From positions 1,439,148 through 1,503,147 of the forward strand of contig SMSO01000014.1 of the NCBI GenBank assembly GCA_004764695.1: a DNA stretch of 64,000 nucleotides, written 5' to 3'. This document shows, one piece after another, positions 59,822 through 61,859 of this stretch; within the stretch, counting starts at the first letter, position 1, and each line of letters begins with the position of its first letter. A model generated the notes under the pieces. The model searched no databases. It saw nothing but the letters and a program-made list of their open reading frames with translations, and was not told where the DNA came from. A program made the position numbers and the translations under genes. The DNA is from Schizochytrium sp. TIO01. Lineage: Eukaryota > Sar > Bigyra > Thraustochytrida > Thraustochytriidae.

Positions 59822-61597
59822 ATGTATAAAATGGCTCCAGTCCAAACTGGGTTCTTTACTTCGTGGCCTGCAGAACTTTCAAAGCTTGCACAATTACACC
59901 CGAACAAGCAAGCTTTAGGCGAGCTCACCAATGAAGGGAATAGACTCCATCGTAATCTAACATTTGCCCAACTTTGGCATGCAAGCTTAGGGGCTGGACA
60001 GTGGCTTTGCGATTATGGCCTCAAAGCTAATTCCCGCTTTGCTATTGTTGGTGATGACTCAATCGAACATGTGGTCCTCTGGACAGCAGCTTCTTTGATT
60101 GGGGCTATTGTAGTAACAACTGATACGTTGGCACCTTTAGCGTCGCTCATGGAGATAATTGAAGACTCGCAGTAAGTATATAACTAAGAGGAGGGAATTA
60201 ACATCGTGTCATTCATTATAGGGGTCTTCAATCATTCAAACACTGGCTAACATGATTTTCACCATTTCGCATGTGCATGCTTGGCCAAATGTACGCATGC
60301 GGATTCTTAAACTGACATTTATAGGCCCGACTTGGTTCTCGTCCTGGAGAGTACGCGAAGTAAAACTCATGGCCGAAATGAGTTTGAACAGCTCCGTAAT
60401 GCATGTTTGGATAAGGTTCAAATACTTCATCTTACCCCCGGGAAATTATTTGAAGAAGTCAAGTGCAGAAAATTACCAGAGGAAAAGCGTCTCGACGCTC
60501 ATGTGGAGGCCCCTTGGGCTATTCTTTACACCTCAGGTACAACAGGTGGCAAGAAAAAGGGAGTTGTGCGCAACCAAAGAGGAAGCATCCTGGGATACTT
60601 TGCTCACTTAACCCATATGCATTTTCGACCTGGAAGGGAAACATTTTTAGCCATGTATCCGCTTCACGGTATTTCAAGCTTCTTCTTTGTGACAATGATG
60701 CTATACATGGGACAGTCTGTGCTTTTGCTGTCTAGACAGTATTCATCATCTGGGCGAACTGTTTTTAATGCTCTTAATACATTTCCAATCACCTTCATTA
60801 CTGGCGGTCCTGCGCATTTGGTCTCGATAATTGACCATGCTGAAGCAAATGCTGACGGGAGAAAACTTCCCCGGTTAAAGACAATTTTAGCCAGCGGTGC
60901 GATGACCTCGTCAGCCACACAGGAGAGGATTCGGAGATTCTTTGCAAGTGCTTCATTCTTTGAGGTCTATGGATCTACAGAAGCAGGTATCATTTCTATC
61001 CTAGACCCTGAGGATTTTCAGGAAAATAGAGGCTCAGTTGGTTTTGAGCCTAGTGGGGTAAGCCAAATCATATTTGTAGATCCCAAGACTGGTGTTCCTG
61101 TTGCTGGAAAGCAATCTACCCCAGGGGAGATTGCAGTTCGTACACCAATGATGTGCCAAGGTTACTGGCGGCGCTCTCCAGAGCTTATCGATGGTTGGTT
61201 TCGTACAGGTGATATGGGCTACCGCTGCAATGATGGGTTTATATATCTATTAGGGCGTGCAGACGACCGAATCACCTTACCTACTGGAGCAAGTTTTTAT
61301 CCCTCAGAGATCGAACGAGTCTTGCTCCAGCATGAACTTGTTTCTCAGGCAGTTGTATTTTGGGACGAGGCAACACAGATGCTCGCAGGTCTATTTCTAG
61401 CTCGAGTGCGCGACATTTGCGATGAGCAAAATCAGTCTCAAGCTGAAAAAGAAATTATCAATTATTGCAAAGACTCTCTCGCGGACCACCTTGTCCCCAA
61501 CACAGTCCTTCCCATGTCTGAAGAAGCCTGGGCTGAGCTTCCCCGTACGGCTACACGTAAGGTCCTACGTTCACGACTTAATCTCCAAAGTTTATAA
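59822..61597 (+). CDS. Acyl-CoA synthetase-like adenylate-forming enzyme
   Basis: Exons 59822-60171 and 60325-61597 give 540 residues. The 153-nt intron starts GTAAGT and ends TATAG. It splits a Gln codon and joins EDSQ to PDLVLVLES. The AMP-binding fold shows the nucleotide loop YTSGTTGGKKKG, YGSTEAG, GWFRTGDMG, the hinge GRADDRI, and PRTATRKVLRS near the end with the catalytic Lys. These make it a class I adenylate-forming acyl- or carboxylic-acid-CoA ligase. No peroxisomal PTS1 (end is QSL) or obvious presequence was found. Chain-length preference cannot be read. The frame extends upstream to TTG 59750; ATG 59822 is the first, and ATG 59831 (MAPVQTG) is possible. Confidence 0.88.
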
Positions 61598-61669
61598 CCA
61601 AGGTCAGCCAACCTAAGATCAGCCACATAGCAATGGTCCTCTCTCATACAGGACTAGCTCATGTAAGCA

Positions 61670-61820
61670 TCCGACTTAGTAAGTAAATTCAGTTGGAAAG
61701 ATGGTGCTCATACACCAGTCCGCTAACAATAATGACTTGATTCATTGCAACGTACAGGCTCAGTGGTAGAGCGTTTGACTTTTAATCAAATGGTCGTGAG
61801 TTCGATCCTCACAGCCGGAA
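61670..61820 (+). tRNA. tRNA-Lys (anticodon TTT) interrupted after position 9
   Basis: Bases 61758-61820 give a canonical D arm (GCTCAGTGGTAGAGC), anticodon stem TTTGA/TCAAA with anticodon TTT, variable TGGTC, T arm GTGAG-TTCGATC-CTCAC and 3' acceptor AGCCGGA. The nine bases directly before GCTC cannot pair with that acceptor. However TCCGACT at 61670-61676, then TA, does: six of seven pairs form, with one A-C mismatch at 5-68. Removing 61679-61757 (79 nt) restores TAGCTCAG and a 72-nt tRNA. The insert begins GTAAGT, has CTAAC at 61723-61727 and ends ACAG. T6 runs follow at 61844 and 61854. A simpler reading is a tRNA-Lys pseudogene with a lost 5' end. Confidence 0.65.
61679..61757 (+). other. 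Putative 79-nt intron within tRNA-Lys, between positions 9 and 10
   Basis: 5' end GTAAGT, branch-like CTAAC at 61723-61727 (31 nt before the 3' end), 3' end ACAG. These are spliceosomal signals. The position differs from the usual 37/38 tRNA intron. No bulge-helix-bulge-like pairing was apparent between the two junctions by eye. Confidence 0.5.
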
Positions 61821-61843
61821 TCGCAGGAGTGTCCTGCTTCCTC

Positions 61844-61859
61844 TTTTTTCTTCTTTTTT
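61844..61859 (+). terminator. T-runs downstream of tRNA-Lys
   Basis: Two T6 runs (61844-61849 and 61854-61859) follow a small hairpin CAGGA-GTG-TCCTG at 61824-61836. They fit Pol III termination but the tract is generally T-rich. Confidence 0.55.

Follow-up and report, generated by a model that had tools for sequence, protein, structure and literature searches.

A second nuclear tRNA-Lys(UUU) gene interrupted between positions 9 and 10 by a candidate spliceosomal intron

Introns of eukaryotic nuclear tRNA genes canonically lie at position 37/38. In Cyanidioschyzon merolae, tRNA genes disrupted by introns are described as frequent, and ectopic tRNA introns are reported from the nucleomorph of Guillardia, where many have no defined bulge-helix-bulge (PMC3978253). 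Spliceosomal introns have been known in two other classes of small RNA genes, those of U6 and U3. The U6 snRNA of Schizosaccharomyces pombe, reported to be made by Pol III, has a spliced mRNA-type intron (Tani and Ohshima 1989, cited in PMC10484740), which is described as lying near the catalytic nucleotides and is thought to derive from reverse splicing (PMC10484740). Among fungal U3 snoRNA genes, 138 of 310 in 78 genomes are reported to contain introns, averaging 92 nt, mostly GT-AG with RCTRAC branch sites and judged to be normal spliceosomal introns; in eight fungal genomes, interrupted and intronless U3 copies occur together (PMC5832005). In the open-access literature, covered mostly by title and abstract start, we found no report of a spliceosomal intron in a nuclear tRNA gene, and passages of PMC10245619, PMC4494063, and PMC11782384 describe none either.

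The locus lies on contig C13 of a 64.06-Mb assembly in 37 contigs, within a window of 64,000 nucleotides (the whole stretch of DNA analysed, to which coordinates without a contig refer). The host is a thraustochytrid-like stramenopile: the best named match of the inositol-pentakisphosphate 2-kinase (IPPK) of the window is that of Hondaea fermentalgiana, a labyrinthulomycete (74% identity). At 61757-61812, Rfam RF00005 recognizes a tRNA at 49.8 bits. This match is part of a 63-nt exon 2 (61758..61820, like all features described here on the plus strand), which runs from position 10 to the discriminator A (61820) and comprises the D arm, the TTT anticodon, and the T arm; on reading the sequence, no acceptor partner adjoins its 5′ side. 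Mature positions 1–9, TCCGACTTA, are found as exon 1 at 61670..61678, on the other side of a 79-nt insert with 61% A+T (61679..61757). The insert begins with the putative 5′ splice site GTAAGT (61679..61684), contains the putative branch-site motif CTAAC (61723..61727), which ends 30 nt before the insert does, and terminates with ACAG (61754..61757), read from the sequence as a putative 3′ splice site. Since insert and exon 2 both start with G, the break can be placed after position 9 or position 10, and only the former placement gives GT-AG ends. Once joined, the exons form a full cloverleaf with a TTT anticodon, as a nuclear tRNA-Lys(UUU) gene requires. ARAGORN does not report the interrupted tRNA-Lys(TTT) locus, so that further examples may have gone unnoticed in annotated genomes.

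The original prediction had named an intact tRNA-Lys(TTT) elsewhere as one half of what would count against it, and such a gene exists on contig C31 (C31:2261907-2261978). It begins with TCCGACTTA followed by GCTCAG, scores 71.1 bits to RF00005, and is called tRNA-Lys(ttt) by ARAGORN. When 61670-61678 is joined to 61758-61820, the product equals the C31 gene at 72 of 72 bases, discriminator included, with exon 1 matching at 9/9; thus the 5′ exon had been reconstructed correctly. An A-C mismatch in the acceptor stem had been counted as a weakness of the fit, an objection that falls away, as the same A5·C68 mismatch is common to the split locus and the intact gene. The base before position 1 is A at the split locus and T on C31, the base after the discriminator is T and A, respectively, and by eye the downstream flanks look unrelated; the upstream flank of the split locus has no other match in the genome.

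As a reference set for the insert, five host introns were rebuilt by hand from conserved proteins. Three belong to genes found by a Cpn60/TCP1 family search, which we take to be two CCT subunits and HSP60, and two to genes of the window, the acyl-CoA synthetase-like neighbour (intron at 60172-60324, with GTAAGT and CTAAC) and an arginyl-tRNA synthetase-like gene, presumably encoding these two enzymes. In every case, over the stretch examined, joining the exons leaves a frame open for 75 or more codons on each side of the junction. The boundaries were chosen for an open frame and GT/AG ends, so that GT-AG is partly built into the set, while the full GTAAGT and CTAAC are not. All five introns (153–549 nt) start with GTAAGT, end with YAG, and contain one CTAAC, 40–145 nt from the end. 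The 79-nt insert has the host-like GT-AG ends and 5′ splice site, and the branch-site motif, of a U2-type spliceosomal intron; it is shorter than all five reference introns and its CTAAC lies nearer the end (30 vs. 40–145 nt). The exon base preceding the reference introns varies (T, G, G, A, T), so that the A before the insert is no fault. The Cpn60/TCP1 search gave 16 matches, by our own count 13 loci, and since only three of these are split in two, the genome looks intron-poor.

According to the word frequencies of the window, an insert with GTAAGT first and AG last, in either of two placements, has a chance of 2.1e-5, and CTAAC anywhere in the insert one of 0.034. However, motifs alone are no proof of an intron, because the short-spaced combination GTAAGT-CTAAC-ACAGG shows no genome-wide excess (19 matches vs. 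30 in a reversed control); it is the exact placement of the insert at the break that carries the case. The 18 other sites define candidates of 73–111 nt with CTAAC 26–49 nt from the end. In two of them, splicing gives open frames of 80 codons or more on each side: L075 (86 nt), which lies a short way upstream of a kinase-domain match and opens 114 and 333 codons, and L074 (86 and 333 codons); the other 16 open fewer than 80 codons on one side or both. TCCGACTTAG occurs twice in the window, and no Rfam match lies near the second site (32603). Taken together, an otherwise perfect tRNA-Lys(UUU) gene contains a real and precisely placed intron-like insert, a statement we make with high confidence. 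The identical C31 copy and the motifs shared with host introns lend good sequence support to reading this locus as a tRNA-Lys(TTT) gene that a spliceosome-type intron splits after position 9.

Other origins of the break can be considered. Parallels in C. merolae and in the Guillardia nucleomorph, including many Guillardia introns reported without a defined bulge-helix-bulge (PMC3978253), allow for an ectopic tRNA intron that the tRNA endonuclease would remove, whether or not that motif is present. Scanning the 9/10 junction in two placements, with sixteen bulge settings each, gave at best 5/7 pairs, which 72% of shuffled inserts matched; the scan did barely better on a control tRNA-Ser intron (4–6 over its placements) and so discriminates little. 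An endonuclease intron leaves GTAAGT, CTAAC, and AG unexplained, and we consider it very unlikely. As to tRNA-Ser genes in this genome, that of L025 has an apparent 39-nt intron near 37/38, and those of L026 and L020 exceed it in length by two bases; all three lie in recurring clusters that also contain tRNAs for Leu, Lys, and Gln.

The sequence just 5′ of exon 1, GACTAGCTCATGTAAGC (61652-61668), resembles tRNA positions 4–24 with four single-base gaps, and includes a weak A-box-like stretch, TAGCTCATGTAAG (61655-61667), which may represent a promoter element outside the gene, the remnant of a tRNA, or a chance likeness. The resemblance is of weak significance at best, the leader as a whole (61598-61669) being matched in its likeness to the tRNA by 48 of 1000 shuffles (239 with lenient scoring). 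When exon 1 is included, 61652-61677 aligns with gaps to tRNA positions 4–33, a fit equalled by 6 of 1000 shuffles (54 with lenient scoring). This likeness would fit two adjoining tRNA fragments, a decayed 5′ part and a 5′-truncated copy, between which the splice motifs arose by chance, as would the pairing of exon 1 with AGTTGGA in the insert at 7/7, possible in 0.8% of 2000 shuffled inserts. On the other hand, the fragments must have met by accident at one exact tRNA base, and the insert itself is unlike a tRNA (829 of 1000 shuffles were as good, 824 with lenient scoring), which makes this explanation highly improbable. In the RNA, the 7/7 pairing of TCCGACT with AGTTGGA (61670-61697) would place the 5′ splice site in a loop; exon 1 pairs 6/7 with the true acceptor strand. 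Folding of the whole unspliced precursor gave an uninformative z of -0.90.

The main competing explanation is a recent pseudogene. A spare copy of the tRNA gene would have received an insert, be it an intron (arriving, e.g., through reverse splicing followed by reverse transcription) or other DNA; exon 1 would now be out of reach of Pol III, and youth or gene conversion would alone account for the identity of the exons. We regard this scenario as a serious possibility, though one that falls clearly short of even. In its favour are the intact C31 copy, the split A box, and the lack of any sign that the arrangement is old. Indeed, the intact gene makes the interrupted one dispensable, and together with a split A box that puts the expected Pol III start within the insert it favours a dead gene. 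However, recent reverse splicing should have left a recognisable donor, and a genome search that skips very common words returned, at E up to 10, a single match of the insert, the insert itself. A mobile insert or introner was rejected on the same search, which gave no further genome copy. Moreover, a random insert would rarely carry the GTAAGT...AG ends (see above), and both exons are without any change.

The number of genes that could supply this tRNA bears on the same question. A genome search with the 3′ part of the tRNA gave 23 matches. One is the split locus, and one, identical over 62 bases, lies on C31; the remaining 21 are weaker, and the 20 of them that were read carry a CTT anticodon, C3:576514 being the one left out. 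The resulting count of two TTT genes rests on this search, with 23 of 23 candidates scored; a genome search for the tRNA family, which scored 63 of 2627 candidates, is no inventory. In the family search, the tRNA matches on C15 recur about every 41,149 bases, and C37 has matches of equal score on the other strand; this looks like a concatenated organelle genome. Fourteen tRNA-Lys(CTT) genes form a tandem array at L024 (G000:C35:885000-890000), 204–209 bp apart, with the first one decayed. The broken Lys copy beside this array has two bases deleted and four changed, while the exons of the split locus have no such changes. That 72 of 72 exon positions were kept while this broken copy decayed favours a working gene. 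So does the finding of only two TTT genes, given that AAA accounts for 157 of 547 lysine codons across 20 open frames picked by hand, some of them including untranslated ends. The exact identity of the exons can mean selection, gene conversion, or youth.

Inserts of the same kind in other tRNA genes, for which the original prediction had proposed to look, did not come to light at position 9/10, and the insert has no second copy. The patterns used were limited to breaks at 9/10, inserts ending in CAG or TAG, and tRNAs with a standard B box. CAGG with D arm and B box had 33 genome matches vs. 36 in the reversed control, and by eye the split locus alone represents the 3′ part of a tRNA with a break at 9/10; C24:5528965 overlaps an intact tRNA, and C24:2151705 was rejected after further reading. 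The TAGG version had 15 matches vs. 52 in the control, none of them tRNA-like by eye. U6 has one genome match, uninterrupted, and so provides no second interrupted case; this match (L092, G000:C30:3952404-3952509) has a TATATA stretch upstream.

The A box of the split gene lies in exon 2, past the insert, and the start of Pol III is set relative to the A box, so that it would be expected inside the insert and would miss exon 1. Upstream, an open frame (60311..61597) in which the acyl-CoA synthetase-like gene has its last exon ends with a stop codon 72 nt before the tRNA, and Pol II read-through from this gene would be the simplest route to include exon 1. Downstream, the first run of six T (61844..61849) was read from the sequence as a possible Pol III terminator. 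A hairpin, GCAGGA-GTG-TCCTGC (61823-61837), lies directly 3′ of the tRNA, ahead of the T runs. Splicing had been taken to imply a Pol II transcript; it does not force one, since the fission-yeast U6, described as Pol III-made, has a spliced mRNA-type intron (PMC10484740). The location on the same strand, 72 nt past the stop codon of the upstream gene, is also what would be expected if the spliced tRNA-like element served the mRNA, for instance through an RNase P cut at the 3′ end of the upstream transcript. Yet the joined body is a complete normal tRNA-Lys, and we hold such a role to be the least probable explanation of all.

We therefore return to the reading of the locus as a second nuclear tRNA-Lys(UUU) gene, which would have gained, after position 9, a U2-type spliceosomal intron of 79 nt. 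A transcript spanning both exons would come either from Pol II, reading through from the acyl-CoA synthetase-like gene, or from Pol III with a start site farther 5′. The spliceosome would then remove the intron, leaving a 72-nt tRNA body identical to that of the intact gene, and RNase P, RNase Z, and CCA addition would finish the tRNA. Transcription across exon 1, splicing, and use of the product are the steps that we infer, and for the proposal as a whole, from the split gene to the finished normal tRNA, we see the scales as evenly balanced. That the insert is spliced in the cell to give a tRNA, a suggestion drawn from one locus, we place at or a shade under the same balance. The wider suggestion, that nuclear tRNA production depends in part on the spliceosome, with some of the AAA-decoding tRNA-Lys coming from a gene with an mRNA-type 9/10 intron, is put forward tentatively, as somewhat less than an even prospect. 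If the insert is spliced, the spliceosome would be able to act on a tRNA precursor and intron gain could reach tRNA genes; the locus would then belong to a class of genes that standard tRNA-finding programs may overlook, and through which the supply of tRNA would become linked to splicing.

Compared with described systems, the insert differs from the canonical 37/38 tRNA intron in position, length, and motifs. The introns of C. merolae and Guillardia are closer in that they interrupt nuclear or nucleomorph tRNA genes, some of them away from 37/38; these, however, are discussed as tRNA-endonuclease/bulge-helix-bulge introns (PMC3978253). The S. pombe U6 gene shares with the tRNA-Lys locus a spliceosomal-type intron in a gene for a small, structured, Pol III-made RNA. 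It encodes an snRNA, however, for which the reverse-splicing route has an obvious reason, whereas no such reason is obvious at tRNA-Lys. Fungal U3 genes also have short, mostly GT-AG introns, and interrupted and intact copies coexist, as they do for tRNA-Lys(TTT). Although they encode a snoRNA and comprise many genes, whereas the tRNA-Lys case is one known locus, the fungal U3 genes are the nearest model for the split tRNA-Lys gene.
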